Source: Mesorhizobium huakuii (GTDB lineage: Bacteria > Pseudomonadota > Alphaproteobacteria > Rhizobiales > Rhizobiaceae). Taken from it: DNA of 64,000 bases. Positions 37,684 to 63,694 of this stretch are shown piece after piece. The translations under genes were made by a program, and so were the position numbers. The DNA lies in contig NZ_CP050296.1 of NCBI RefSeq assembly GCF_014189455.1, forward strand, positions 5,886,001 to 5,950,000. Reading direction: 5' to 3'. Numbering within the stretch: position 1 is the stretch's first letter; each line of letters opens with the position of its first letter. The notes under the pieces were generated by a model. That model did not search any database and was not told the DNA's origin. It was given only the letters and a program-made list of their open reading frames with translations.

Positions 37684-38619
37684 TCATTTTTCGTTGACTG
37701 GTAGTCTGAATACTGCAGCAAAATCATTCAGCTTTAGGTCGCGGGGACCGGCAACAAAAGCTGCGTAATCTCCAGATTCGAGCTTTAGAGGCGGTGGATA
37801 CTTCAAGGCTGCCTGGGCCATGTATTTGTCTAGCGCCGGGACTTGACCTTCGATCCAAGGTGAAATCGTGCCTGCGGGGTTTCGAGCCGCAAGCTCAGCG
37901 TCACTCACTACCGAAAATAGCCCCAACGTTTCGCGCGGCACGTCAAAGTCCTTCTTCATCGCCGTTCTAAGGTATTCCAAATACTCATTTCCGCGCTCGG
38001 TGTTAGGGGCGATCGGCTGGTCATTGACAATGTCAAGCACCCGGCCGTCAGTAGTCTCCAGAGTCCGGACCATCGCAGCGAACTTCGCCAACGCAATGAC
38101 TCGGGTTTGCGAGTTAACATCATTGAGCGCTTCCTTCTGCCCTGCAGGTCCCTTGTTGCAGGGGCTAGGTGGTTTGACTGAGGGATCAACGGACCAATAG
38201 TCCAAGCCAAAAAAGCGCACGGCGACCCAAAAAATGTTTGCCTTCGTCTCACTAACGCCAAGCGAGCGCATCCCAAACCAAAATGTGTTTTGAGTAGAAT
38301 AGTACTCCCGAGCCTTTGAGCAGGAATAGTAATCGTGAATAATTGCAGCATTAAGGTATAGGCCGGAGTACGTATCGCCGACAAAAGTCCAGAATTCCCA
38401 GGGGATACTGGCGCCATCCGTTGCCTCGCCTGCCGGTGCGACCCACTCCAAACCATTGGGATCCAAGTATCTAAACGGCTTGTCCAGTCGAAAATATGTA
38501 CGATCTGGGCCGTTGATGAATTCACCATGGGGATTGTCTGGAAATCTTCCAAATTCTTGGCCGTTGGCACCACCAACCATCATTACCAAGCACACGGCAG
38601 AAAAAGCGGTTCTTTTCAT
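37684..38619 (-). CDS. Secreted protein with DUF1353-like domain
   Basis: Function unknown. The 311-aa product has a signal peptide (MKRTAFSAVCLVMMVGGANG). The DUF1353-type signature is ATDGASIPWEFWTFVGD followed by AAIIHDYYSCSKAREY; this family occurs in phages and envelope proteins. The C-terminal half is unrecognised (FDVPRETLGLFSVVSDAELA, then GDYAAFVAGPRDLKLNDFAA). Its codons are more AT-rich than the core genes, consistent with acquired DNA, but it lies outside the tRNA-Thr att repeats. Confidence 0.75.
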   Translation of the reverse strand: MKRTAFSAVCLVMMVGGANGQEFGRFPDNPHGEFINGPDRTYFRLDKPFRYLDPNGLEWVAPAGEATDGASIPWEFWTFVGDTYSGLYLNAAIIHDYYSCSKAREYYSTQNTFWFGMRSLGVSETKANIFWVAVRFFGLDYWSVDPSVKPPSPCNKGPAGQKEALNDVNSQTRVIALAKFAAMVRTLETTDGRVLDIVNDQPIAPNTERGNEYLEYLRTAMKKDFDVPRETLGLFSVVSDAELAARNPAGTISPWIEGQVPALDKYMAQAALKYPPPLKLESGDYAAFVAGPRDLKLNDFAAVFRLPVNEK

Positions 38620-38813
38620 TCACCCCTCCCAGCGCGTCCAAATCCATGCAGTGGATTTCAGTTGGACTCTCCGAGTTTCGCAGGAAATTGTCGGAAATCA
38701 ATAGTGGCAACTAGTTAGTCTATTTCTTACCCTTGTGAGCATCGGGTCAAACGCGGCAGCAGGGACGACGTTCGTGTCGCAACACGCAAACGGCAGATAG
38801 TTTCCTTGGGTTT

Positions 38814-39809
38814 TTGATTGTTCTGGTGCCCCCCCGACGGGATCGAACCGCCGACCTTCGGTTTACAAAGATCGCAGGTCGGCCGTGGCCTTCAAGCGTG
38901 AATCCGATCAAACCCTCGGCAAAAGTGCACTGTCACCGTAATTCGCGCAACCTTCAGCGCGAGCTGTTTGAGGACAACGAAAAGGTGTTTCATTTCCGCT
39001 TGAAGGAGCCTATCGCTCCCGAAATCCTGTCGAATGTCATCGATTATGCCCGCGCCGAGATCGGTGCGCGGTATTCCCTACTGGAGGCCAGCCGATTAGT
39101 GCGTGGCGCGCGCAAACCGGGGTCGAAACGCCAGTTTTGTTCGCGTCTGGTCGCGAGGGTCTATAAAAGAGCCGGCATCGATCTTGTCCCGAACGCCGAC
39201 TATTGCTCACCGGAAGATCTACGGCTTAGCTCCTTGTTGGTGGAGGTGCCGGTCTCGACAGAAACGGTGTCTGCGGAGGAACTGGAATGGTGGAGAGCCC
39301 ACGACAATCCGATCCAGGCTATGCATCAAGCCCAGAACGCCGTACTCGACGCAGCCCGTTCTGTTGATCCGGATGTGGAGAGCTTCAACGATCTTTATTC
39401 CCTGCTCGTAAATCGACCTGACGCGGATCAAGTGATGGCAGCCGCCCTTCGCGGTAGCGGTTACCTTGATGTGTGGCGAATGGAGACTGATTTACATCCG
39501 TGGCGCTATGACCTGGGCCTTATCGACCGGATGACCGAGTCGCAGGAGGAACTGCGGGAATATTGCATTGATACGATTAAAGAAGCCTACAGTGGTGGCG
39601 TCCGGTTCGCGGTCAATCTCGTTCAGTTGCAGGCCCTTAACCGCGAGCACCCGCGCGAATCCCTGCGCCTGCAGATAGAGCTTTATCAAACCCTCGTTCG
39701 GAACGACCAATTGCGCAGGGAAGTTGCCTACGCATGGCTGTCCAAACACTACCCAGACGACCTGAAACGGCACATGGAACAGATCGAGCTGCACAGTGCC
39801 TATTGGTAG
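38814..39809 (+). CDS. Truncated permuted papain-like (YiiX/NlpC-P60-type) protein
   Basis: The frame runs through the att site, so its first 35 or so residues are translated tRNA sequence and the true start is unknown. From about residue 45 it resembles the C-terminal half of circularly permuted NlpC/P60 proteins: EKVFHFRLKEPIAPE, YARAEIGARYSLLEASRL, then the catalytic-type Cys in RQFCSRLVARVYKRAGIDL. The N-terminal region that should carry the His is missing, presumably lost at the island edge. The C-terminal 170 residues (RMTESQEELREYCIDTIKEA) are unrecognised and helical. Probably a relic. Confidence 0.55.
   Translation: MIVLVPPRRDRTADLRFTKIAGRPWPSSVNPIKPSAKVHCHRNSRNLQRELFEDNEKVFHFRLKEPIAPEILSNVIDYARAEIGARYSLLEASRLVRGARKPGSKRQFCSRLVARVYKRAGIDLVPNADYCSPEDLRLSSLLVEVPVSTETVSAEELEWWRAHDNPIQAMHQAQNAVLDAARSVDPDVESFNDLYSLLVNRPDADQVMAAALRGSGYLDVWRMETDLHPWRYDLGLIDRMTESQEELREYCIDTIKEAYSGGVRFAVNLVQLQALNREHPRESLRLQIELYQTLVRNDQLRREVAYAWLSKHYPDDLKRHMEQIELHSAYW
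38824..38869 (-). repeat. att site: duplicated 3' fragment of tRNA-Thr
   Basis: Matches tRNA-Thr from the anticodon loop to the CCA end, with one mismatch and one extra base in the acceptor C-run. The sequence departs from the tRNA abruptly after TTTACAAA. This is the typical distal att scar of a tRNA-integrated island. Confidence 0.9.
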
Positions 39810-40046
39810 TACTCGATTGTTGACCGTGTCGAACCACACCTGGCGGCGCTGTCCCGTCACGCCGTAGAAGCGGAGGGCGGGACGAACGTCTGCACATCAT
39901 GTGGAGACGAGCCAGCGCTGGACTATCGGTTGGTCAATGGCGCCGAGACCATGCCAGGAGTGCCATCCTTGCGCCTCTGCGAGGACTGCATCGAAATTCG
40001 TCGTGGCATGGACAACGTGCTGGTCCGGTTTCTGGTCGCACCTTGA
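39810..40046 (+). CDS. Small zinc-ribbon-like ORF, 78 codons, no normal start codon
   Basis: Directly after the TAG at 39807-39809 and in the same frame, an open stretch reads DRVEPHLAALSRHAVEAEGG, then VCTSCGDEPALDYRLV and LRLCEDCIEIRRGMDNVLVR, ending TGA at 40046. Two CxxC pairs spaced like a zinc ribbon and good codon use suggest real coding sequence. There is no ATG/GTG/TTG before the first CxxC; ATT 39816 or CTG 39837 could start it. Otherwise it is read-through of the preceding gene or a remnant. Confidence 0.5.
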   Translation, partial: YSIVDRVEPHLAALSRHAVEAEGGTNVCTSCGDEPALDYRLVNGAETMPGVPSLRLCEDCIEIRRGMDNVLVRFLVAP

Positions 40047-40168
40047 AAAAGGAAGCTGCGTTGGGCCTCTTGTGGGCGCGAGGGGCAACGGCCCTTCATT
40101 AGACGCCTGGTGCATTGCGGAACGACAAGGGTAACGCCATGATACCCCTTGTTGAGGGGGAGAATTCC

Positions 40169-40876
40169 ATGGTGCAGAGACATACTGTTGTCATTCCAAC
40201 AGCCGACGGCAGCGGGGCCGAGGTCTATCCCCTCAAAGAGTGGGGACGCCAGCATCCTGATATGTTCCCGGATGGCTTTGATTTCGTCTACGGAACCTCG
40301 CATAGCTATCGAAAGGCCCTATTACAAAGGCAAGGCTGGACCAAGCAGGAAAGTGAAGCTGAGTACAGACTGATCGCCCCAGGTGCGGAGGGTAGTATCG
40401 GGATTGTCGAGGATTTGCTCGGTGAGGCCGAGCCAGTTGAGCGGGGCTATGACGCCCCTTATTTTTCATTGGAATATCAACTGCGGGACTTTCTGGCGTC
40501 GAACCTGAGCACCATCGATTTCGGGGGAAAAAGGCTTTGCCTTTATGTGGACCCTACCGGCCGGGACGGCGTTGAATATCCGACTGCTGTCGGCCCAATC
40601 GACCTTCTGGCCGTCGACAATGAGGGCTCATTCTACGTATTCGAGCTCAAGCGCGGGAATAGTTCTGACCGCGCCATCGGGCAAATTGCTCGCTACATGG
40701 GATGGGTCAAACAGACCATCGGCAGGGACAAAGAGGTGCAGGGGATTATTGTCGCCAAGAACGTCGGCGAAAATCTGAAATATGCTAGGAGCGTGCTCCC
40801 TTCTGTAACCCTATTTGAATATGAGGTTTCGTTCTCGCTGAGACTCGCAAATAATGTAGAAGCGGTTAGGTCATAA
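40169..40876 (+). CDS. NucS/DUF91-like PD-(D/E)XK nuclease
   Basis: Probable DNA endonuclease. From ATG 40169 (MVQRHTVVIPTADGSGAEVY), preceded by GGGGGAGA, it is 235 aa. The C-terminal domain has the endonuclease core: the acidic residue in AVGPIDLLAVDNEGSFYVFE, then ELKRGNSSDRAIGQIARYMG, and GIIVAKNVGENLKYA. These match the ID...ExK and Q.. ..YMGW pattern of NucS C-terminal nucleases. The N-terminal half is unrecognised. In an island cargo position, defence or mismatch-cleavage functions are both possible. Confidence 0.75.
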   Translation: MVQRHTVVIPTADGSGAEVYPLKEWGRQHPDMFPDGFDFVYGTSHSYRKALLQRQGWTKQESEAEYRLIAPGAEGSIGIVEDLLGEAEPVERGYDAPYFSLEYQLRDFLASNLSTIDFGGKRLCLYVDPTGRDGVEYPTAVGPIDLLAVDNEGSFYVFELKRGNSSDRAIGQIARYMGWVKQTIGRDKEVQGIIVAKNVGENLKYARSVLPSVTLFEYEVSFSLRLANNVEAVRS

Positions 40877-40901
40877 ATGATTTCTTTCATGGGGTTCTTG
40901 A

Positions 40902-41242
40902 ATGAATACACGCAGCTTAATAGTTTGGATTATATTGGTGTCATGCACGCCAGCTAGAGCGGCATCTGAATCGGAGCTTTCTGAATCCCAGGCAGTCGGC
41001 CTAGTCTATGAGATACTGCAAATGTATAGAGCGCGTCAGCCAACCTGTGACATTGATGATTTTAACACGGAATTGGCGGAGCAAAAGCGATTGCGTTAAT
41101 GACGAATGACAAGCGCTTATTTGATGAAAGTTTACGTGAGGGAATTCTTGTATTTGACATGGCGGTTCGCGGCGGGCCGACAGTGGCGGAATGCCAAGAC
41201 ATTTTAACCAAAGCGACTAAGTACGGCCTGCAGGCAAAGTGA
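40902..41242 (+). CDS. Small secreted protein (frameshifted as given)
   Basis: The first frame (ATG 40902) gives a signal peptide, LIVWIILVSCTPARAASESE, then LSESQAVGLVYEILQMYRAR and stops at 41099. A neighbouring frame continues with coding character: KAIALMTNDKRLFDESLREG, then GPTVAECQDILTKATKYGLQ, ending TGA 41242. One base change in the AAAA run at 41083-41086 fuses them to about 113 aa. Alternatively the second half is a 47-aa ORF from ATG 41099 overlapping by TAATG. No known family. Confidence 0.5.
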
Positions 41243-41388
41243 CCCTAGTCCCCATGGTCAGAGTATTTCGTTCGGCGTGATCGTCAGATCGAAATCTGCT
41301 CGACCTCGTCGAGGCTGACCTAGGCCCTCGGTTCACTGACGCTTAGGATTGAGGGAGGGATCGCGAGGGAAGAACCGCAAGGGGGGCT

Positions 41389-42042
41389 TCATTCGCCGTA
41401 CGCCTCGTTTCGGGCGTCGATCAATTGAGCAAACCAGCTCTCAATCCCCTCAAGATAGTCCGCCAGTTTCTCCATTCCGGTTGCGAACGTCCGGATATTG
41501 ATCAGCTTGAGGACCGGGCCAAGCGTTCTCTTGGAATCTCGAGTTCTCGCGTATCGAAAACTTTCACCTCGGGGATCATGCGCGTTTATCTGGCTCATAT
41601 AGGAATCTACGCCATTCAGATCCTCGGACGGCAGCGGCTCTGACCCGACGATCTCACAAACGGGTTCAAGCATTGGCCTGGCCATAGTCCAGAGAGAAAG
41701 AAGATCGTGACTGCCGAGCTTTCTTTCCTGGGCGGGTGTCATTGATTTCCCTTGGAGATCCAGAGCCATTCGGACTACGTCCTTCAAGACCAGTTCGATG
41801 TGGTGCCGGTACAGGTACACAATCGGATACACAATGAGGTCCTGATCGACCGGACGCTCGCACATCTTTGACGTCAGTTCGAACGCCGCCTTCCGAAAAC
41901 CCGCCTTATAAGCGTATCCCGTCTCATGCCAATGAGAGATGCAGGCGTTGAGATGCCAGTCTTTCGGCTCACCGCCGAACAGCACATCGGAAGCGCGAGG
42001 CGGTGGAAGACCCCCAAAAACGGACTTATCTGCGTCACCCAT
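41389..42042 (-). CDS. Hypothetical island protein, alpha-helical
   Basis: Not recognised by name. The 217-aa product begins MGDADKSVFGGLPPPRASDV. A conserved-looking core, LIVYPIVYLYRHHIELVLKD, resembles the RHxxELxLK segment of uncharacterised HEPN-like proteins that occur in defence islands. The rest is helical (ERKLGSHDLLSLWTMARPML, then GMEKLADYLEGIESWFAQLI). It has no membrane segment. Encoded on the opposite strand to the other island genes. Confidence 0.6.
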   Translation of the reverse strand: MGDADKSVFGGLPPPRASDVLFGGEPKDWHLNACISHWHETGYAYKAGFRKAAFELTSKMCERPVDQDLIVYPIVYLYRHHIELVLKDVVRMALDLQGKSMTPAQERKLGSHDLLSLWTMARPMLEPVCEIVGSEPLPSEDLNGVDSYMSQINAHDPRGESFRYARTRDSKRTLGPVLKLINIRTFATGMEKLADYLEGIESWFAQLIDARNEAYGE

Positions 42043-42209
42043 TTAGCCTCCTCCCATCTATGACATAGGACATTATCACAGATGCTGGCGGCCCCCGGAC
42101 ATGATCGGAGCCTGCCTGCTGTTCCTAGCAGCAGCGAGGGACTGCCCCATCCAGATGCCAGGATATTCTAGAGAAAGCGCCAAAAACTCGGTTGAAAAGG
42201 CCACTTTCC

Positions 42210-42232
42210 CTTACACAAATCCTTACACAAAT
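42210..42232. repeat. Paired CTTACACAAAT repeats next to the tRNA-Thr 3' end
   Basis: CTTACACAAAT at 42210-42220 and again at 42222-42232, 12 bp apart. Similar CTTRCACA repeats lie at 61153-61181 just inside the tRNA-Trp element. The spacing and place suit arm-type integrase binding sites. Confidence 0.5.
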
Positions 42233-42319
42233 GCCTGGATAGAACGCGCAGCGGCAGATGCTGGCACTCTACAACATACCTAATTATGAAGGTAAAATAG
42301 GGACTAATGCTCGATTTGC

Positions 42320-42395
42320 TGGTGCCCCCGGACGGGATCGAACCGCCGACCTTCGGTTTACAAAACCGCTGCTCTACCAGCTGAGCTACAAGGGC
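42320..42395 (-). tRNA. tRNA-Thr(TGT)
   Basis: A 76-nt cloverleaf including CCA: acceptor GCCCTTG/CGGGGGC, D-arm GCTCAGCTGGTAGAGC, anticodon loop TTTGTAA (anticodon TGT), T-loop TTCGATC. It is the integration site of the adjacent island. Confidence 0.97.
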
Positions 42396-42552
42396 ACGGC
42401 GCTCCGGTAGCATATTTCGTGCGTCAGTAAAGACAAAACTCCGTTTTCGGTTACCCCGGCGGTGGATGACCCCGCCGCCCGCCCATACTGAAATCCGCGA
42501 GCGCGCTTCCTACATATTGGTGAGGTGCAATCGCTTCGGACTGGAGTGTCGC

Positions 42553-42720
42553 ATGATCAGGCTTGTCATCATTCTCCCCATCGTGGTCATCGCCTGGATG
42601 TTGCTGGTGAAGCTCGTCAGCGACGTGAAGAAGGCCAATGTCGACTGGACCGGCGTGACCACGATCATCGGCTTCATCGCGCTCGCCTTCTGGCTGCGCC
42701 ATGTGACGGGAATGGGATGA
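42553..42720 (+). CDS. Small hydrophobic membrane protein
   Basis: A 55-aa protein from ATG 42553: MIRLVIILPIVVIAWMLLVK forms one transmembrane helix, followed by a charged turn VSDVKKANVDWTG and a second hydrophobic stretch TTIIGFIALAFWLRHV. Two short helices, inner-membrane hairpin topology likely. Family unknown; stands alone after tRNA-Thr. Confidence 0.65.
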   Translation: MIRLVIILPIVVIAWMLLVKLVSDVKKANVDWTGVTTIIGFIALAFWLRHVTGMG

Positions 42721-42783
42721 GAGAGAGCGAATAGGGAACAGCGAATAGTCGGTAGTGGGACCGAGATTGCCGTGCGATCCTGC

Positions 42784-42838
42784 CTCGCTACTCGCTACTC
42801 GCTACTCGCTACTCGCTACTCGCTACTCGCTACTCGCT
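42784..42838. repeat. Heptanucleotide tandem repeat, TCGCTAC x about 8
   Basis: About 55 bp of nearly perfect 7-bp repeats lie between the small membrane protein gene and the His-rich protein gene. Unit number is likely variable between strains. Not a CRISPR: no spacers. Confidence 0.9.
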
Positions 42839-42949
42839 CTTTCCGACCCCGCCGAAAAATCTCCTCGACCTTTCGAACCTTTTGACAGGCCGCGCCGACT
42901 GACCTCCAGAGGCGAGTGGTCGCCTCGGTCAAGGATCCAGGAGATCATC

Positions 42950-43153
42950 ATGTTCAAGCGCACGCTCACTTCCGCCCTCGTGGCCACTTTCGTCGCCACA
43001 GGCGCACTGGCCGCCACCGTTCAGACGTCGTCGGCTCACGGTATGCATCATCACCATCATCACTACGACGACGACTACGGCGACTACTGGTGGTACCACC
43101 ATCACCACCGTCATCACCATCATCACCATGGCGGGGTGGTCATCATCTTTTGA
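42950..43153 (+). CDS. Secreted histidine-rich protein
   Basis: A 67-aa protein from ATG 42950 (GGAGATCATC upstream). Signal peptide MFKRTLTSALVATFVATGAL, then a mature part that is mostly His with Asp, Tyr and Trp (HHHHHHYDDDYGDYWWYHHH). Probable periplasmic metal binding by composition. The leader and ribosome-binding region are nearly identical to those of the BA14K gene 390 bp downstream, indicating duplication of the 5' part. Confidence 0.75.
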   Translation: MFKRTLTSALVATFVATGALAATVQTSSAHGMHHHHHHYDDDYGDYWWYHHHHRHHHHHHGGVVIIF

Positions 43154-49059: not shown

Positions 49060-49908
49060 TCAGCCGCGCTTGAGGAAGGCTCGTGCGGCATAGAGGCTGA
49101 TCGCCGCGGCGTTGGACACGTTGAGCGAGCGGATGGCGCCGGGCATGTCGAGCCGCGCCAGCGTCGTCACCGTCTCGCGCGTCTTCTGGCGCAGGCCCTT
49201 GCCCTCGGCGCCGAGCACCAGTGCGATCCTGTCGCCGGCAAAGCTGGTTTCGAGTTCCGCCGGCCCGTCCGAATCAAGCCCGATGGTCTGGAAGCCGGCC
49301 TCGTGCAGCTGCCCGAGCGCGTCGGCGAGGTTCTTCACCTCGATCTGGTCGATATGCTCCAGCGCGCCGGAGGCGGATTTCGCCAGCACGCCCGATTCCT
49401 GCGGACTGTGGCGCGCGGTGGTGATCAGCGCGCCGGCGCCAAAAGCGACCGCCGAGCGCAGGATGGCGCCGACATTGTGCGGATCGGTGACCTGGTCGAG
49501 CACCAGCACCAGCCTTGTGTCGCCGAGCGCGTCGAGGCGCTTCGGCTTCAACGGCTCCGCCTCGATGAGCACGCCCTGATGCACGGCGTCCGACCCGGTG
49601 ATCTTGTCGATGTCTCTCGGTTCGACCAGCTCCGCCTTGAAGGGCAGGGCGGCGAGATCGGCTATCTCAAGACGCTCGGCCGCGTTGCGGGTCACCAGCA
49701 TTTTTTTGATCCGGCGGCGCGGATTGTCGAGCGCCGCCCGCACCGTGTGCAGGCCATAAAGTCGCACCAGGCCATCGGCGGCGTTTTCGCCGGGTGGCAC
49801 GGGCTGACGTGGCTTAAATGCCGGGGCGCCGCCGCTCTTCTCGTCGCGGTGCGCGCGGCGCAGCTTGGCGTAATGGGTATCTTTGGGGGTGTTGGTCTTG
49901 TTGCTCAT
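49060..49908 (-). CDS. rlmB: 23S rRNA (guanosine-2'-O-)-methyltransferase RlmB
   Basis: SPOUT/TrmH-family methyltransferase acting on 23S rRNA (G2251 in E. coli). 282 aa with a basic N-terminal extension (KLRRAHRDEKSGG), an L30e-like substrate domain (LYGLHTVRAALDNPRRRI), and SPOUT motifs DQVTDPHNVGAILRSAVAFG, ALVLGAEGKGLR and RSLNVSNAAAISLYAARAF. It borders the tRNA-Tyr-tRNA-Gly-tuf locus on the opposite strand, its usual place in rhizobia. Confidence 0.94.
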   Translation of the reverse strand: MSNKTNTPKDTHYAKLRRAHRDEKSGGAPAFKPRQPVPPGENAADGLVRLYGLHTVRAALDNPRRRIKKMLVTRNAAERLEIADLAALPFKAELVEPRDIDKITGSDAVHQGVLIEAEPLKPKRLDALGDTRLVLVLDQVTDPHNVGAILRSAVAFGAGALITTARHSPQESGVLAKSASGALEHIDQIEVKNLADALGQLHEAGFQTIGLDSDGPAELETSFAGDRIALVLGAEGKGLRQKTRETVTTLARLDMPGAIRSLNVSNAAAISLYAARAFLKRG

Positions 49909-50110
49909 GGCCGGCTTCTATAGCGGTCTGCCGCGGCCAAGGATATGGCCCGTCGCCGCAGCCGGCGAACAACATCGAAAAACCCTTCCACTGCGGTTGA
50001 CACCCACTGGCCTTGCCGCCATAAGGCGCTTCGCTGATTTCGGAGAAGACATCCAACTCGGGCTCCGGGATCGGCAAGAATGCCTCGTTGCATGGCTCCG
50101 GCGGCAGACT

Positions 50111-50195
50111 GGAGAGGTGCCCGAGTGGTTAAAGGGGACGGACTGTAAATCCGTTGGCTTAGCCTACGTTGGTTCGAATCCAACCCTCTCCACCA
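50111..50195 (+). tRNA. tRNA-Tyr(GTA)
   Basis: An 85-nt class II tRNA: acceptor GGAGAGG/CCTCTCC, anticodon loop ACTGTAAAT (GTA), long variable arm, T-loop TTCGAAT and encoded CCA. Confidence 0.97.
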
Positions 50196-50284
50196 CTGCC
50201 GGCCCGGAAGCCCTGAAACGAAAAAGCATCGGGCCGAAAAGGGCATGGCGCTTTTCGGGTGAATCCGATACTTCAGTGCAAGGC

Positions 50285-50358
50285 GCGGGTATAGCTCAGT
50301 GGTAGAGCAGCAGCCTTCCAAGCTGAATATGCGGGTTCGATTCCCGCTACCCGCTCCA
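50285..50358 (+). tRNA. tRNA-Gly(TCC)
   Basis: A 74-nt tRNA: acceptor GCGGGTA/TACCCGC, D-arm GCTCAGTGGTAGAGC, anticodon loop CTTCCAA (TCC), T-loop TTCGATT, encoded CCA. Follows tRNA-Tyr by 89 bp. Confidence 0.97.
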
Positions 50359-50554
50359 GATTTTCAGCCGTGCGATCCGCAAATAGCATAAGATACAGAC
50401 GCCTGCCTACCGTCATTGGTCTCCACCAGCGACTTTCCGCCTCATTCTATCGCGGGCGCCTAGTTTTTCTTCTTCCGGCATTCCGCCGTACGAAGATTGC
50501 TGATTCGGGAACATCATTTGACGCACCGTCGGACCCTCCCTTAGTTTTCGACCG

Positions 50555-53500
50555 ATGTTTGAAATCACGCGCGACGATATTGCCGCACTCAATGATGAAG
50601 ACTTGCGAACGCTGATTGGCCTTTTGTGTGAGGCCACTTTGCGACGCGCGAACCTGCCCGTATCTGCCGCCACATGGGGCGGCGACCAAACCGCTAAGGA
50701 CGGTGGCCTTGACGTGCGCGTGTCGCTGCCTTCAGGGACCAAGATCGAGGGTTTCATACCAAGGGCCGCGACCGGCTTTCAGGTGAAGAAACCTGACATG
50801 CCACCTTCGGAAATCCCGAAGGAGATGAAGCCGAAGGCTATCATTCGTCCGGTGATTGAGGAGCTGGCCGCCGCAGACGGCGCCTACATCATTGTGAGCT
50901 CCAGCGGCTCTACGGCGGATTCCGCACTTGGTAATCGCCGCACCGCTATGGCGGACGCGGTGAAGGGCATCGCAGATGAGGCGAAGCTCCATCTCGACTT
51001 CTATGACCGTAACCGCGTTGCGAGCTGGGTGCGTGACCATCCGGGGTTGATCCCATGGGTGCGTTCCCGAATTGGAAAATCCGTTCCCGGTTGGAAATCT
51101 TACGGGGGATGGTCCAACGTGCCAGCCGGCGCGGATAAAAGTTATCTTCTCGATGACAAGGCGCGCATCAAGGCGGACAACAAAAATGATGGTGGCAGTT
51201 TGTCGGTTGTTGACGGCATCAACCGAATTCGGGACGCACTCCGGAACCCAGGCCAGGTTGTTCGCCTTGTCGGCCTTTCAGGTGTTGGCAAAACGCGGCT
51301 CGTCGAAGCCCTGTTTGACAACGCAGTTGGCGCGAATGCGCTGGACCCCTCGCTCGCTATCTACACCGATGTTGCCGATGCCCCTGACCCTCAACCCAGA
51401 GGCCTTGCTTCCGACCTAATCGCAGCTGGCACACGTGCAATTCTGGTAATCGACAATTGCCCTCCGGAAACGCACAAGCGCTTGTCAGAGGTGGTGCGCG
51501 CCTCCGGCTCAACGGTCAGCGTCGTTACCGTTGAATACGACATCCGTGAGGATCAGACAGAAGGCACAGACGTTTTCTCACTGGAAACGTCCTCGCCGCC
51601 TTTGATCGAGAAATTGGTGGCACAGCGTTTCCTCGAACTGTCGCAAATCGATGCGCGCAGGATTGCCGAGTTTTCGGGCGGCAACGCGCGAATAGCGTTG
51701 GCTCTTGCCGCCACTGTAAAGAAAACCGAGACAGTCTCCGGCCTCACCGATACCGAATTATTCAAACGCCTGTTCCAGCAACGCCATGACCCTGATGCGG
51801 GCCTGTTGCAAATCGCTGAAGCCTGTTCACTGGTTTATTCCTTCCAGGGCGAAGCGTTGACAGGGGAGGATGCAGAGCTACCCATACTCGGCGGGCTGGT
51901 TGGAAAAACCGCGCAAGAGGTATTTAAGGCAGCTGCCGAACTGAAGCGGCGGGATCTCCTGCAAAAGCGCAGCGAATGGCGCGCGATCTTGCCGCACGCT
52001 ATCGCAAATCGGCTGGCGGGAATGGCTCTTCAGAACATTCCCTATCCCGTTATCGAAGCGGCCATCGTGAACGGATCGTCAGAACGCCTATTGCGCTCCT
52101 TCTCGCGTCGCCTTGGCTATCTCGATGTCAGCCCGGAAGCGCAGACGATCGTGCGGGGCTGGCTGGCCGCAGGCGGGCTCCTTTCGGATGTGCTGAACCT
52201 AAATGAACTCGGTCGCGCGATGTTCGAAAACGTAGCACCGGTACAGCCCGAAGCGACGCTTGCCGCGCTTGAGAAGGTGTTAGCCGGGGCAGACAACGAC
52301 ACATTGGTACGTGGCGCGCATTTCATACGCCTCTTGCACGCACTAGCTTTTGACGCTGCGCTGTTCGAGCGCGCTGTCGCACTGCTATGCAGGTTCGCAA
52401 GTGTGACTGACAAGACGGTTGCCAATGACACGCTGAAAGCGATTGAGCCCCTGTTCTATATCGCTTTTTCTGCAACCCATGCGCCGCTGGCGATGCGGCT
52501 GAAGGTGGCGGACAAGCTGGTGAAATCGGACAAGCCGTATGAGCAACAACTCGGTGTCAAGGCTTTAGAGGCCATGATGAAGTCGGGGCAATTCATGCCT
52601 TACTCCAGTTTTGAGTTTGGCGCCCGCTCACGCGACTACGGCTACCATCCAAGGCGTGGAACGGAAGTCAGCGCCTGGTTCGAAACTGTGCTCAAGGCAG
52701 TTGAACCTTTCGCCCTGCAAGACAGCCCGGTTAGGGACAGGATGCAAAAAGCCATTGCCCGGAAGTTCCGCGGCCTTTGGAAAAACTCGGGCCAGCTCGA
52801 CGCGTTGGAGCGTCTTTCAAAGGCGATTGCTGGCAATGGTTTCTGGCGTGACGGCTGGATCGCTGCACGACAGACGCGGCAATACGAAGGAAAGACGCTT
52901 GAAGCCGAGAGCCTGCGGCGCCTCACAGAGTTGGAGCAATTTCTTAGGCCGAAAGATTTGATCGATAGCGTACGGGGCATTGTGCTCGGTGAAAGGGGTG
53001 GCAGCCTTGATGACTTCGAGGATGATGAGGAAGTAGACATTTCCGAGCGTATGAAACGCGTTGATGCCCTTGTTGAGCAATTTGGAAAAGAAGCCGCTGC
53101 CGACGAAAAGACATTGCAGGCTCTCCTCCCGGAACTCATTAGCGGTCACGGGCGGCTGTTCGAATTCGGGCGAGGACTTGCGCTAGGCGCAAAAGCACCT
53201 CGCATCATGTGGGCGGCTTTGGTGGCACAGGTGGCGGCAACCGAGCACCCAAACACGCAACTTCTACGCGGCTTCCTGCAGGGATTTCAAACGAGGGATC
53301 CTGCAGGCGCGCAGGCACTTCTTGATGAGGCTGTCGAAGATAAAGCCCTAGGCAAATGGCTGGTCGATCTTCAAACGAGCGTCCCGATAGACGAAGCCGG
53401 CGTCAAACGGCTTCATCGTGCACTGGAACTGGGCAGGGTTCCTACGCACTATTTTTCCGCATTGGTTGGCGGGCGGGTATGCGATCCCATTCCGGGGCCG

Positions 53501-54349
53501 GCATTTCGTGACCTGCTCCTGGCCATTAGCGCGAAACCCGGTGGCAATCCCATTGCGCTGGAAATTCTCATGATGCGCCTGCACGCAGATGGTGGAGAGA
53601 AACGAACACCATTGCCTGAAACTGTCGAGGCCGGCCGCGTACTTCTTGGGCGGTATGAGTTTGAGCCACGTTCCGAGCACGCGGATCACAGAGACCACAC
53701 GCTAGATGTTGTTGCCAGAAATTGCCTGGGAGGGCCTGAAGGTGGTCCCGTCGCAAAGAAGGTTTGGCGCAATCTGAGGGCGGCAATTAAGAAGCACGAG
53801 GTTTATTCGTGGGAATGTGACGGCCTGCTCCAGGCGTTGTTCAAGGCACAGCCGGCGACAATGCTGGATGAGTTGCTCGGGGGCGACGAGCAGGAACGCA
53901 AGGAAAATATCACAATCGTTCAAGATACAAACAATCTACACCCCAATCCGCTGGGTGTGGTCGCGGACGAGGTGCTGCTGGCGTGGTGCGATGCCGACCC
54001 AGGTTTGCGCTATCCCTTTGCAGCCACGATAGCGCTCCTTTTTGATCAGCCCGAGAATACATCGCCACTTGAGTGGCATCCAATTGCGAAAGCGCTTCTG
54101 AAGCGCTCGCCCGATGCGGTCGCGGTCCTGATGAAGATGTATGAGGCCCTTTGGCCGACAAGTTACGGAGGGTCATTGGCGACCGAGTACGAGAGGCGGC
54201 TTCAATTGCTTGACCGATTGGACATCGGCAGTGACGCTGCCCTCGTCGCCGCGTTCCAGTGGGCGCGCGCCAAGCTGACCGCCGCTGTGGATGCAGAGCG
54301 AGGCCGGGAACTGGAAGAAGATCGGGTCGAGAACAGTCGGTTTGAGTGA
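50555..54349 (+). CDS. Nuclease-STAND NTPase fusion, Avs-like putative anti-phage protein
   Basis: Large cytoplasmic 1264-aa protein, likely a phage sensor and effector in one chain. N-terminal domain (about 1-170): an Mrr/Cap4-like PD-(D/E)XK nuclease pattern, with Glu26 in LIGLLCEATLRR, Asp53 in KDGGLDVRVS, and Gln76-x-Lys78 in TGFQVKKPD. Central P-loop: Walker A GLSGVGKTRL (240-249), Walker B AILVIDN (Asp300), with a STAND-like helical region after it. The remaining 800 residues are alpha-helical, TPR/HEAT-like (LIEKLVAQRFLELSQIDARR), the usual sensor position. No membrane segments. It stands alone between tRNA-Gly and a YidB gene, breaking the normal tRNA-Gly-tuf linkage. Cleavage activity and phage role are inferred. 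Confidence 0.8.
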   Translation: MFEITRDDIAALNDEDLRTLIGLLCEATLRRANLPVSAATWGGDQTAKDGGLDVRVSLPSGTKIEGFIPRAATGFQVKKPDMPPSEIPKEMKPKAIIRPVIEELAAADGAYIIVSSSGSTADSALGNRRTAMADAVKGIADEAKLHLDFYDRNRVASWVRDHPGLIPWVRSRIGKSVPGWKSYGGWSNVPAGADKSYLLDDKARIKADNKNDGGSLSVVDGINRIRDALRNPGQVVRLVGLSGVGKTRLVEALFDNAVGANALDPSLAIYTDVADAPDPQPRGLASDLIAAGTRAILVIDNCPPETHKRLSEVVRASGSTVSVVTVEYDIREDQTEGTDVFSLETSSPPLIEKLVAQRFLELSQIDARRIAEFSGGNARIALALAATVKKTETVSGLTDTELFKRLFQQRHDPDAGLLQIAEACSLVYSFQGEALTGEDAELPILGGLVGKTAQEVFKAAAELKRRDLLQKRSEWRAILPHAIANRLAGMALQNIPYPVIEAAIVNGSSERLLRSFSRRLGYLDVSPEAQTIVRGWLAAGGLLSDVLNLNELGRAMFENVAPVQPEATLAALEKVLAGADNDTLVRGAHFIRLLHALAFDAALFERAVALLCRFASVTDKTVANDTLKAIEPLFYIAFSATHAPLAMRLKVADKLVKSDKPYEQQLGVKALEAMMKSGQFMPYSSFEFGARSRDYGYHPRRGTEVSAWFETVLKAVEPFALQDSPVRDRMQKAIARKFRGLWKNSGQLDALERLSKAIAGNGFWRDGWIAARQTRQYEGKTLEAESLRRLTELEQFLRPKDLIDSVRGIVLGERGGSLDDFEDDEEVDISERMKRVDALVEQFGKEAAADEKTLQALLPELISGHGRLFEFGRGLALGAKAPRIMWAALVAQVAATEHPNTQLLRGFLQGFQTRDPAGAQALLDEAVEDKALGKWLVDLQTSVPIDEAGVKRLHRALELGRVPTHYFSALVGGRVCDPIPGPAFRDLLLAISAKPGGNPIALEILMMRLHADGGEKRTPLPETVEAGRVLLGRYEFEPRSEHADHRDHTLDVVARNCLGGPEGGPVAKKVWRNLRAAIKKHEVYSWECDGLLQALFKAQPATMLDELLGGDEQERKENITIVQDTNNLHPNPLGVVADEVLLAWCDADPGLRYPFAATIALLFDQPENTSPLEWHPIAKALLKRSPDAVAVLMKMYEALWPTSYGGSLATEYERRLQLLDRLDIGSDAALVAAFQWARAKLTAAVDAERGRELEEDRVENSRFE

Positions 54350-54452
54350 TGTCTAGAGCGTTATCTTTATCACCTTACAAGATCATAACCGCGATCCAGG
54401 CGGAAACGCTGCGCGCTATGTTGCACAGCGTTTTTTGATTGATCCCGCCGCG

Positions 54453-54917
54453 TCAGCTGTTAAACGCCGAAGCCACCTGGTGCTGCTGTGGTACCTGGCC
54501 GTTCGGCGTCAGCTTGTCGACAATGCCGGGCAAAGCCGTGGACAGCTGCTTGAGCAGTTCCCCCTCGTCCATTCCAGTGCGCTGCGCGATCTCGCGGATG
54601 ACCTGCGGCCCCAGTGCTGCGCCGAGATCATTGGCGTTGATCGACTGGTTCTGTCCGGTGCCGACCCAGGAATCGGCGACATTGCCGTGGCCGGCATCCC
54701 TAAGCTTGTCGAGCAGGCCACCCAGACCGCCGAGCAGGCCGCCATCACTGGCGGTGGTTCCGACAGGAGTTGGGTCGACCGGCGCGGGCGCTTGAGGCTG
54801 ATCCGGCTGTTCGGCGCTTCTGCCGCTCAACATTTTTCCGACCAGCAGTGCGCCGAGCGCGATCATCAGCGGTTTGGTGATGTTGCCGCCGGGAACGGCG
54901 TTGTCAAAAAGTCCCAT
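54453..54917 (-). CDS. YidB family protein (DUF937)
   Basis: Function unknown; YidB-like proteins are small and widespread. 154 aa: N-terminal MGLFDNAVPGGNITKPLMIA with one hydrophobic stretch, a Pro/Gln/Ala-rich linker (AEQPDQPQAPAPVDPTPVG), a Gly/Leu-rich segment GGLLGGLGGLLDKLRDAGHG, and the conserved C-terminal ADSWVGTGQNQSINANDLG, then GMDEGELLKQLSTALPGIVD. The signature VADSWVGTG.N is typical of YidB. Confidence 0.88.
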   Translation of the reverse strand: MGLFDNAVPGGNITKPLMIALGALLVGKMLSGRSAEQPDQPQAPAPVDPTPVGTTASDGGLLGGLGGLLDKLRDAGHGNVADSWVGTGQNQSINANDLGAALGPQVIREIAQRTGMDEGELLKQLSTALPGIVDKLTPNGQVPQQHQVASAFNS

Positions 54918-56782: not shown

Positions 56783-57958
<1,176 letters not shown>

Positions 57959-61015: not shown

Positions 61016-61091
<76 letters not shown>

Positions 61092-61201
61092 TTTTCCTAG
61101 GAAAATCAGGCACTTAAAAATCGGCTTGCTAGCCGAGGACGCCGAAAGTAGCCTTACACATCTCTTGCACAAACTTGCACACGCGCAGGGAGTGTCTGGC
61201 G

Positions 61202-62422
61202 ATGGCGGAAAAACACACGATTCTCGAAGGCAAGGTTCACGTTTATCGGCGCAACGACAGCCCGATCTGGCACTGTTCGACGTTCCTGAAAGGCAAAAAC
61301 TGGCGCGTCAGCACCAAGGAAGAGAGCCTTTCTCGGGCCAAGGACTGGGCTGAGGACTGGTATTTCGGGCTGAAGGACAAAGGTCGGCGCGGCGAACTGG
61401 TAGGCGAGAAAACTTTCAAGGACGCCGCCGACCAGTTTATCTCTGAATACGAGGTTCTTACGGATGGAGAGCGCAACGCCCGTTGGGTCAAGGACCATTA
61501 CCGGCGCGTTCGCACCTATCTGGTGCCTTTTTTCGGCAAGATGGGTCTTTCGACCATCACGGCCGGCACGGTGCAGGAATACCGCATTTCGCGGATGACG
61601 CCTGAGGAGGGCAAGAAGCTTCCCTCACGCAGTACCCTGCACCACGAGACTGTGACCTTGCGGCTGGTCCTGAAAACCGCCCTGCGCCACCGCTGGGTGC
61701 CCCACCTGCCCGACATCTCGCAGCCCTACAAAAAGTCAGCGAAGGTGGTACATCGCGCATGGTTTACCCCAGAGGAGTACAAACAGCTGTACCAGGCGAC
61801 ACGGGCGCACGCTCATGATGCACGTGCAGTTAGCCTCAAAGCGCAGAAGGGCGAGCAGGCGCACCGTGTCTGGCTGGCCGAGCAGCTTCACGACAAGATC
61901 CTCTTCCTGACAAATACCGGTTTGCGGCCGGACGAGGCCAACTGGCTGGAGTACCGGGACGTGGAGGTTGTCAAGGACGGGCCGACGGGTCAGAAAATCC
62001 TGGAGATCCAGGTGCGCGGCAAGCGCGGCGTCGGGTATTGCAAGAGCACGTCCGGCGCCGTGTTCCCGTTCGAGCGGATGGTGGCCCGGAACAAACCTAA
62101 ACCAACGGACCGGATTTTCCCGGTCGATCACAAGAAGCAGTTCAACACCATCCTCGACAACATCGGCCTCAAGCTCGACCGGGAGGGCAATCGGAGGACG
62201 CTGTACTCACTGCGCCACAGCTACATCAGCTTCCGCCTGCTGGAGGGCGCCGACATCTACCAGATCGCCAAAAACTGTCGGACGAGCGTCGAGATGATCG
62301 AGAAGCACTATGCCGTGCACCTCAAGAACCGCCTCGACGCCGCTGCCATCAACGTCCGTAAGCCCAAGCCGGTGAAACGGCCCAAGCCTGCGGAGAAGAC
62401 CCTTGACCTGTTTGAAAACTGA
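61202..62422 (+). CDS. Tyrosine recombinase / phage-type integrase
   Basis: Integrates and excises the element at tRNA-Trp. From ATG 61202, 406 aa: MAEKHTILEGKVHVYRRNDS, an N-terminal SAM-like DNA-binding domain (WVKDHYRRVRTYLVPFFGKM), then catalytic residues Arg in LFLTNTGLRPDEANWLEYRD, HxxR in SLRHSYISFRLLEGADIYQI, and the nucleophile Tyr in VEMIEKHYAVHLKNRLD. Lies 110 bp after the tRNA 3' end in the same direction, the usual IME arrangement. Confidence 0.95.
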   Translation: MAEKHTILEGKVHVYRRNDSPIWHCSTFLKGKNWRVSTKEESLSRAKDWAEDWYFGLKDKGRRGELVGEKTFKDAADQFISEYEVLTDGERNARWVKDHYRRVRTYLVPFFGKMGLSTITAGTVQEYRISRMTPEEGKKLPSRSTLHHETVTLRLVLKTALRHRWVPHLPDISQPYKKSAKVVHRAWFTPEEYKQLYQATRAHAHDARAVSLKAQKGEQAHRVWLAEQLHDKILFLTNTGLRPDEANWLEYRDVEVVKDGPTGQKILEIQVRGKRGVGYCKSTSGAVFPFERMVARNKPKPTDRIFPVDHKKQFNTILDNIGLKLDREGNRRTLYSLRHSYISFRLLEGADIYQIAKNCRTSVEMIEKHYAVHLKNRLDAAAINVRKPKPVKRPKPAEKTLDLFEN

Positions 62423-62532
62423 GGCCGGCCCGAGCTTGTGAAATTGACGGGAATTTGTTGCAATGCGTACAGCGCACCTACGCATCGTCCAACGTGTATT
62501 ACGCATTGAGACTTGGGGGACGATGCTTGCTC

Positions 62533-62603
62533 GGTTTTCTAACCGGTTGCGGAGCGCAAACCGGAGAAAACCGGCAGCTGCGCCAAGGGGGAAACCCCCT
62601 TTG
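62533..62603. promoter_or_regulatory. Putative oriT (MobQ-type)
   Basis: An 18-bp imperfect inverted repeat: GGTTTTCTAACCGGTTGCG (62533-62551) against CGCAAACCGGAGAAAACC (62555-62572). It is followed by GGCAGCTGCGCCAAGG, similar to the MobQ nic region, and a second hairpin CCAAGGGGG/CCCCCTTTGG (62583-62603). It lies just upstream of the relaxase gene, as in RSF1010-type origins. The nic position is inferred. Confidence 0.7.
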
Positions 62604-62632
62604 GAAACCCCGTCCGAGCCGTGGAGAGGCCC

Positions 62633-63694
62633 GTGGCCATCTACCATCTGAACGTCAAGAACATCAGTCGGGGCGATGGGCGGGACATCGTGGCGGCTGC
62701 GGCGTACCGGGCTGGGGAAGTCCTGCCGAACGAGGCCGAAGAGCGCCTGTCGGACTTTGGCGGGCGCCGGGATGTCGTCGCCAGTGAAATCCGCTTGCCT
62801 GATGGGGCGCCGGAATGGATGGCCAACCGGTCCAGCTTGTGGAACGCGGTGGAAGCGGCCGAAAAACGCAAGGACGCCCGGCTGGCCAAGGAGGTGGAGT
62901 TTGCGTTGCCTCTGGAATTGCCACGCACGGCGTGGCTGGGCATCGCCCGCGTCATGGCCGACGCCTATACGGTGCAGGGGTTCGTGGTGGACCTGGCCAT
63001 TCATGACGACGGTGCCCGCCGCAATCCCCATGTCCATCTGCTGATGACCACCCGGCTGGTGGGGCCGGACGGCTTCGGCTTGAAGATCCGGAGCGCCGAC
63101 GGGAAGCTCTTCGTGACCGAAGCGCGTAAGCTGTGGGAGCGGATCGCCAATGACGCCTTGGGCAAGGCGGGCCTTGCGGTTGCGATCGACAGCCGGAGTT
63201 ACGCCAAGCGCAAGCTTGATCGGTTGCCGGGGCGGCACCGAGGCCCTAATCCTGAAGAACGGCGGGCCCGCAGGGTCCATGCGCAACGGGAGGGGGAGAT
63301 GGCACCCAGACAACCTGACGAAGACCTGCCGGTGCCTGATCCGGATGGTTCGCCGATCCATCCGCAGGAGTTGGCCGCAGCCGAAGAACGGATGTTGGAA
63401 GACATGCAGCGTCCTGCCCCGGTCGAGACGGGGCAGGTCCAGGGGGACCTGGAGGCTGCCCGGGCCGTTGTCGACCGGCAGAATGCCGTGGAGATAAGCG
63501 AGGACGACGACGCCGCTTACCGGCTGGCGCCGGATAACCTGCTGGACTGGCTGGACGACAAGACCCGTCCCGAGGACGTCCCGACGCTGGAGCGTTGGGA
63601 AAACCACCTCGATTGGCTCGATAGAGGGCCGCCAGAGCCCGAGGAAGGCCGAGAGGAGCCGCAGACGCCCGAGCCGGACCGGGAGCGCAGGTAG
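62633..63694 (+). CDS. MobA/MobL-family relaxase
   Basis: Nicks oriT and pilots the transferred strand. From GTG 62633 (GTGGCCATCTACCATCTG, with GGAGAGG upstream), 353 aa: VAIYHLNVKNISRGDGRDIV, then AAAAYRAGEVLPNEAEERLS with the MobL-type AYRAG motif, and the metal-binding HxH in NPHVHLLMTTRL. The C-terminal half is charged (RRVHAQREGEMAPRQPDEDL). MobQ class by motif order. ORF 62621 extends 4 codons upstream but lacks a ribosome-binding site. Confidence 0.92.
   Translation: MAIYHLNVKNISRGDGRDIVAAAAYRAGEVLPNEAEERLSDFGGRRDVVASEIRLPDGAPEWMANRSSLWNAVEAAEKRKDARLAKEVEFALPLELPRTAWLGIARVMADAYTVQGFVVDLAIHDDGARRNPHVHLLMTTRLVGPDGFGLKIRSADGKLFVTEARKLWERIANDALGKAGLAVAIDSRSYAKRKLDRLPGRHRGPNPEERRARRVHAQREGEMAPRQPDEDLPVPDPDGSPIHPQELAAAEERMLEDMQRPAPVETGQVQGDLEAARAVVDRQNAVEISEDDDAAYRLAPDNLLDWLDDKTRPEDVPTLERWENHLDWLDRGPPEPEEGREEPQTPEPDRERR

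Follow-up and report, generated by a model that had tools for sequence, protein, structure and literature searches.

PD-lambda-4 is a defence system of Escherichia coli that was obtained by selecting for resistance to phages (Vassallo et al. 2022, PMC9519451). The passages of that article considered here contain no description of the system and no STAND, NTPase or P-loop reading of it. According to the same passages, the census counted multi-gene systems only with all components present, so that loci with protein A alone would go uncounted (PMC9519451). Table entries seen in two further sources mention PD-lambda-4, one listing a P-loop NTPase (PMC10952713) and one in a genome survey (PMC13268207). 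Here we describe a gene in a stretch of 64,000 nucleotides from Mesorhizobium huakuii (contig NZ_CP050296.1, positions 5,886,001 to 5,950,000 of the forward strand), called the window throughout. The gene encodes a relative of PD-lambda-4 protein A, in our judgement probably a single-gene, NLR-like anti-phage receptor.

An intact member of the PD-lambda-4 A family

50555..54349, + strand: open reading frame (ORF) of 1264 amino acids, a STAND NTPase related to PD-lambda-4 protein A, without B

The ORF is intact, as the earlier note on this DNA had it, with an ATG start and no internal stop. The PADLOC model PD-Lambda-4_A (PDLC03991) matches residues 1-1264 at 1056 bits; Pfam gives nothing above its cut-off for this protein and NCBIfam nothing at all. 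In E. coli we located the system as protein A of 1283 amino acids (2518 bits) and protein B of 303 (653 bits). BLASTP aligns the window protein with E. coli A at 34% identity over the full length, the final RFE included. The earlier note's proposal of an undescribed defence system is ruled out by the PADLOC match. Judged by its sequence, the gene belongs to the PD-lambda-4 A family as a variant without B and is not a new system.

Among 7999 candidates scored, 4530 are homologues at E ≤ 1e-5, and the ratio of nonsynonymous to synonymous substitution rates (dN/dS) is 0.144 overall against a Mesorhizobium temperatum relative (L002, 74% identical); the ORF is therefore more than a chance one. By part, dN/dS is 0.159 for the nuclease, 0.086 for the linker and NTPase, and 0.161 and 0.131 for the two halves of the solenoid, where dS exceeds 1 and is near saturation. 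By this comparison the gene is under purifying selection. Its G+C content, in 1-kilobase (kb) bins, is 57-58%, versus 60-67% in the flanking bins (45-50 and 55-60 kb).

Conservation was counted in 185 aligned proteins (183 distinct), namely the window's own, 69 locus ORFs and 115 database proteins, lengths outside 1230-1320 amino acids being excluded; many are close relatives, and the effective sequence number is 67 at 70% identity. The motifs named in the earlier note, E26, D53, Q76-V-K78, G240-L-S-G-V-G-K246-T-R and D300, are all present at those residues. The structure was predicted in two overlapping pieces, residues 1-520 and 171-1264.

Three modules of the protein

51110..52114, + strand: STAND NTPase, helical lid and winged helix, residues 186-520
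51272..51298, + strand: Walker A GLSGVGKTR, residues 240-248, assigned by conservation in the 185 sequences
51452..51460, + strand: end of Walker B, D300-N301-C302 (184, 184 and 182 of 185)
51992..52018, + strand: MHD-like PHAIANRLA, residues 480-488 (P480 185, H481 168, A484 184, L487 184 and A488 185 of 185)

In the predicted structure, a P-loop NTPase is followed by a helical lid and a winged helix, with an NB-ARC/NACHT-like fold. Flanked by an N-terminal effector and C-terminal repeats that form a putative sensor, judged by architecture alone, it has the layout of a STAND protein. K246 is kept in 185/185 sequences. The weighted frequency within Walker A is 1.00 for G240, S242, G243, G245, K246, T247 and R248, 0.92 for L241 and below 0.90 for V244. 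Residues 480-488 are, as we take it, placed and spaced like the MHD motif of NLRs.

50555..51049, + strand: Mrr-like PD-(D/E)xK nuclease domain, the putative effector, residues 1-165, from a profile-profile match to Mrr_cat and predicted secondary structure
50699..50713, + strand: putative active site, first part (D49-G-G-L-D53), which aligns with DGGxD in Mrr (D49 and D53 185/185)
50780..50788, + strand: putative active site, second part (Q76-V-K78), which aligns with QxK in Mrr (Q76 185/185, K78 184/185)

Residues 1-165 match the Mrr_cat profile with P 8.2e-6, probability 83.6% and a score of 38.6; 60 column shuffles reach 22.4 at most. Profile alignment and predicted secondary structure (helix-strand-strand-strand-helix-helix-strand) place the Mrr-like active-site pattern in the right order. 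All 10-residue blocks of the domain have a predicted local distance difference test (pLDDT) score of 89-96, except residues 41-50 at 57. E90 is kept in 185/185 sequences, as is D49, which the earlier note overlooked; E26, which it had named, is the weakest of the named nuclease residues (165/185). The domain is a putative Mrr-like nuclease, which may cut DNA. The Cap4 half of the earlier note's Mrr/Cap4-like assignment is unsupported: the hhalign probability was 2.1% in a weak test against one Cap4 sequence, and Pfam found no Cap4 (PF14130) in 52 members. Searched by itself against the PDB and Pfam, the N-terminus gave chance matches only. The 50 matches listed from a viral structure library are mostly AAA+ and clamp-loader-type ATPases, with no recognisable nuclease.

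52115..54334, + strand: HEAT/ARM-like alpha-solenoid, putative sensor, residues 521-1260, from an all-helical model, Foldseek and low conservation
54341..54346, + strand: C-terminal F1263-E1264 (184/185 aligned proteins; 17/17 hydrolase-type proteins)

The model of residues 171-1264 has a mean pLDDT of 87.4 and ends in an all-helical solenoid, in agreement with the C-terminal helical repeats foreseen in the earlier note. Foldseek finds resemblance of the solenoid to CAND1, importins and CRM1 at low template modelling (TM) scores. Averaged over blocks of 40 residues, entropy is 1.3-1.6 bits up to residue 160, 1.8-2.0 from 161 to 240, 1.3-1.7 from 241 to 520 and 1.9-2.6 in the solenoid. The solenoid is the least conserved part of a protein whose effector and NTPase are conserved, as expected of a sensor.

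The aligned final two residues are Phe-Glu in all but one divergent sequence (L086); 170 proteins end exactly there and 14 carry one extra residue. The pair also closes E. coli A and, as the last residues or one before the last, the 17 hydrolase-type proteins described below. Its survival through the change of effector in these sequences makes a role in the nuclease active site unlikely. We propose that Phe-Glu is a latch, holding either to the NTPase/winged-helix module or to an adjacent subunit, in a part of the model that is of low confidence (last block pLDDT 62). The near-invariant end is a warning against C-terminal tags.

A probable single exchange of effector

In five loci (L071, L074, L076, L108 and L109) similarity begins only at residue 152-168, preceded by about 250 other residues. 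Pfam assigns these N-termini to alpha/beta-hydrolases (DUF676, PGAP1, Abhydrolase_6), with matches partly above and partly below the curated cut-off. Together with proteins from a second search, 17 hydrolase-type proteins were read, their N-termini being judged from the first 30 residues; 16 of them have a GxSxG nucleophile motif. On a quickly built tree of 56 rows from residue 166 onward, with labels from the N-termini read and the Pfam results, the 16 hydrolase-type rows form one side of a branch with 100 in the Shimodaira-Hasegawa-like approximate likelihood-ratio test (SH-aLRT). The tree needs one effector change, against 14.2 in shuffles; two shorter nuclease-labelled rows (P0149 and P0151) carry labels given without a check of the N-terminus. 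The simplest reading is that the effector was exchanged once on a stable NTPase-sensor chassis. The family spans many phyla, and these are intermixed on the tree, which fits horizontal spread.

Two relatives of 67-68% identity (L078 and L079, 10001 onwards) break off after about residue 285 and continue into different ends with no trace of the remainder; they are likely decayed copies.

A gene apparently gained beside a tRNA

50285..50358, + strand: tRNA-Gly(TCC), left neighbour, found by ARAGORN
50366..54449, no strand: 4.1-kb stretch, apparently acquired, that holds only this gene and is absent from relatives; the flanks are joined in 7/19 congener loci

Upstream lie tRNA-Tyr and tRNA-Gly(TCC), and the gene sits directly between the latter and a YidB-family gene (54453-54917). 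Next come a transglycosylase-associated-protein gene, a transporter-like ORF and tuf, the last two named by reading and without a search. The earlier note placed the gene in a tRNA-tuf locus: the tRNA is indeed its neighbour, and tuf begins at 56783, beyond three intervening genes.

None of the 19 congener loci fetched has the gene at this site. In seven (L089, L090, L091, L094, L095, L096 and L098) just 36-70 bases connect the flanks, and 50366-54449 therefore looks gained as one piece; the remaining loci have other content or a further loss, or end. The left flank (49600-50554) is matched in 40/41 genomes, many through the tRNAs alone. Any relative of the gene is present in only 6/61 near-relative genomes, the window's own included; the relatives in the other five genomes have 22-40% identity, in three cases over partial length, and in three genomes where the flank was also found (G016, G020 and G022) the relative is located elsewhere. 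L002 has similarity to the window from 50511 up to the gene's end and nowhere else, and no flank in common with it.

No exact direct repeat of at least 9 bases joins 50271-50600 and 54301-54620, which leaves a tRNA attachment site with direct repeats, and site-specific integration of the tRNA type, unsupported. The island hotspot of the earlier note is a variable locus beside a tRNA. Its description of a single gene with no conserved neighbour agrees with the locus comparison and with ORF clustering around 75 loci, in which no conserved partner was seen: the best family occurs in at most 7 loci, none within 400 bases. In three loci (L026, L033 and L062) a family of large proteins (1181-1260 amino acids) is encoded less than 400 bases away. 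We also took the nearest ORF of at least 150 amino acids within 2.5 kb on each side in the 58 loci with enough flank. This gave 112 neighbours, of which 109 were kept; those set aside are an ORF within the A gene and another forming part of it (L044 and L051), and one from L081; the most frequent family accounts for 3/109 in Pfam and 2/109 in PADLOC.

50518..50546, + strand: possible promoter TTGACG-17-TTAGTT, by eye and weak, ending 8 bases before the ATG

The window has this pair in 50518-50554 without a Shine-Dalgarno sequence, a layout that is common to several near relatives and would imply a leaderless mRNA. A count of 10/73 loci with the layout included 4 from 6 hand-added loci. In the remaining 67, TTGAC is no commoner at the promoter-like position than 55-64 bases upstream (6 loci each), and the leaderless promoter was dropped as evidence.

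Protein B

The window has a full-length A and no B beside it. B (PDLC03992) was not found in the window's genome, and a scan of the nine ORFs neighbouring the gene gave no PD-Lambda-4 match. A tblastn search with B of the window and 113 loci, with flanks as long as the contig permits to a maximum of 10 kb, matched only the two E. coli loci. Among 398 genomes of the phylum, A was matched in 10 (one being that of the window) and B, in a separate search of 398, in four, some matches being weak or fragmentary; one of these genomes (G354) has an intact pair and another (G350) fragments of both.

One alternative is that A requires B, the lone A being inactive or the remnant of a system. We hold it to be unlikely. 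B does accompany A in E. coli: the two genes of the validated system are 45 bases apart, and A is found in 151 and B in 147 of 5426 complete genomes. Elsewhere, however, the available DNA of 80 related loci has no B, nor have 12 of the 14 A-matching genomes besides the window's own, G354 and G350 being the exceptions; among 14 control genomes, the E. coli one has a match to B and none has one to A. The lone A is moreover intact and under purifying selection.

B also occurs by itself. A homologue 40% identical to it lies on a Pseudomonas aeruginosa plasmid (L154, 8001-8912), with no A within 8 kb, and adjoins a CBASS-like gene set (SAVED, nucleotidyltransferase, ThiF and Mov34 genes); from this context, B by itself may be a defence gene. 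Since A is mostly without B among related loci and B is found without A, we regard A as the central component and B as its companion in the E. coli lineage; A alone may suffice.

Interpretation

Full-length homology to PD-lambda-4 A, the STAND fold, the HEAT-like solenoid and the Mrr-like profile support an NLR-like anti-phage receptor. Effector exchange, sensor divergence, gain at an empty site, the lack of a shared flank in L002 and purifying selection support it as well. The gene is a real candidate for anti-phage defence, intact and horizontally acquired, and most likely works like Avs or NLR receptors. The C-terminal solenoid would bind a phage component, upon which the STAND NTPase would leave a closed, probably ADP-bound state. 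ATP binding would then drive oligomerisation through the NB-ARC-like module, bringing the Mrr-like nuclease domains together. The resulting DNA cutting would stop the phage and perhaps the cell.

Several observations weigh against this interpretation. Structural matches cover single domains, with query-normalised TM-scores of 0.24-0.35 for residues 1-520 and 0.09-0.27 for residues 171-1264. For the N-terminal domain, Pfam found no nuclease in the 52 members scanned, and no PDB nuclease was matched by profile. No PADLOC family matched more than 2/109 neighbours. Validated PD-lambda-4 includes B, which is absent here, and the anti-phage function of the window protein is a predicted one; the effect itself is that of the E. 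coli A+B system (PMC9519451), and the passages considered give no result for A alone.

Defence against plasmids or other incoming DNA, instead of phages, seems quite unlikely. Homologues also occur on plasmids (43 of 72,556 records) and in none of 50,697 phage records, which favours it. Mrr-like nucleases cut foreign DNA, another point on its side. The E. coli relative, however, was selected by phage lambda, judging by the name of the system and its naming in the passages of PMC9519451. A STAND protein with a non-defence role, for example a MalT-like transcription regulator, is very improbable, given no DNA-binding output domain by Pfam, a nuclease-like or hydrolase-like N-terminus, a defence family assigned by PADLOC and sporadic presence (any match in 6/61 near relatives, own included).

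Beyond the anti-phage receptor itself, we tentatively suggest that PD-lambda-4 A could be a separate, widespread and autonomous NLR-like class. It would combine an exchangeable effector, Mrr nuclease or alpha/beta-hydrolase, with a Phe-Glu internal latch independent of the effector, proposed to dock on the NTPase or the next subunit. Literature searches without figures, supplements and most subscription papers turned up no publication of the NLR-like reading, of the effector swap or of the Phe-Glu tail; among the STAND/Avs papers listed, none is about this family by title or abstract beginning. Compared with what we found written, this reading of the family is the stronger one and the more open to testing. 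The family is large and present across many phyla, and A as an NLR-like receptor gives a testable mechanism, which also points to B being dispensable. The nuclease and hydrolase forms, built on one chassis, make a natural effector-swap pair.

Other features of the window and genome

At 61016-63694, tRNA-Trp is followed by a 415-amino-acid ORF resembling, on reading, a tyrosine-type integrase (no Pfam match at 1e-3) and by a MobA/MobL relaxase gene; this reads like a more classic tRNA-linked mobile element than the site of the 1264-amino-acid gene. The stretch 38001-43000, of lower G+C (52-57%) and beside tRNA-Thr, is possibly another island; its ORFs include one for a NucS-C-like nuclease (40115-40876) and an amidase-like one whose match falls just short of the cut-off (38814-39809). 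Elsewhere in the genome there are a Cap4-nuclease protein and an Mrr-type protein, at G000:C2:5590-6225 (L126) and G000:C1:5476888-5477223 (L141), both on the minus strand.

Comparison with known systems

The earlier note read the protein as Avs-type. Its nuclease, STAND NTPase and helical sensor architecture, and an Avs-like way of working, are supported; the recognition of phage terminase or portal that it cited for Avs proteins would be conjectural for this one. PADLOC, which presumably includes Avs models, gave none at E ≤ 10, in a scan whose filters drop most weak hits, and PDB sequence searches with the window protein list no Avs. Among the 50 structural matches listed EfAvs5 is the only Avs structure, a list that excludes no other Avs. 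Compared with Avs1-Avs5 (AVAST), the protein has no model match in that scan, and its solenoid matches HEAT/importin-type structures.

With PD-lambda-4 A the protein shares 34% identity from end to end, the N-terminal DGGxD and QxK, Walker A and the final RFE; it differs in that its locus and genome are without protein B, and within the family divergence is greatest in the solenoid. With Mrr-type nucleases (PF04471) it shares the aligned DGGxD and QxK, whereas by sequence it stays below Pfam thresholds and is fused to a STAND module. The matches listed among NB-ARC/NACHT receptors (Apaf-1, NLRC4 and NRC1) are only 10-16% identical to it, and its effector, unlike theirs, is nuclease-like; it nevertheless has their NTPase-lid-winged helix fold, together with an MHD-like stretch. 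Its HEAT-like solenoid stands, we assume, where these receptors have leucine-rich or WD repeats.

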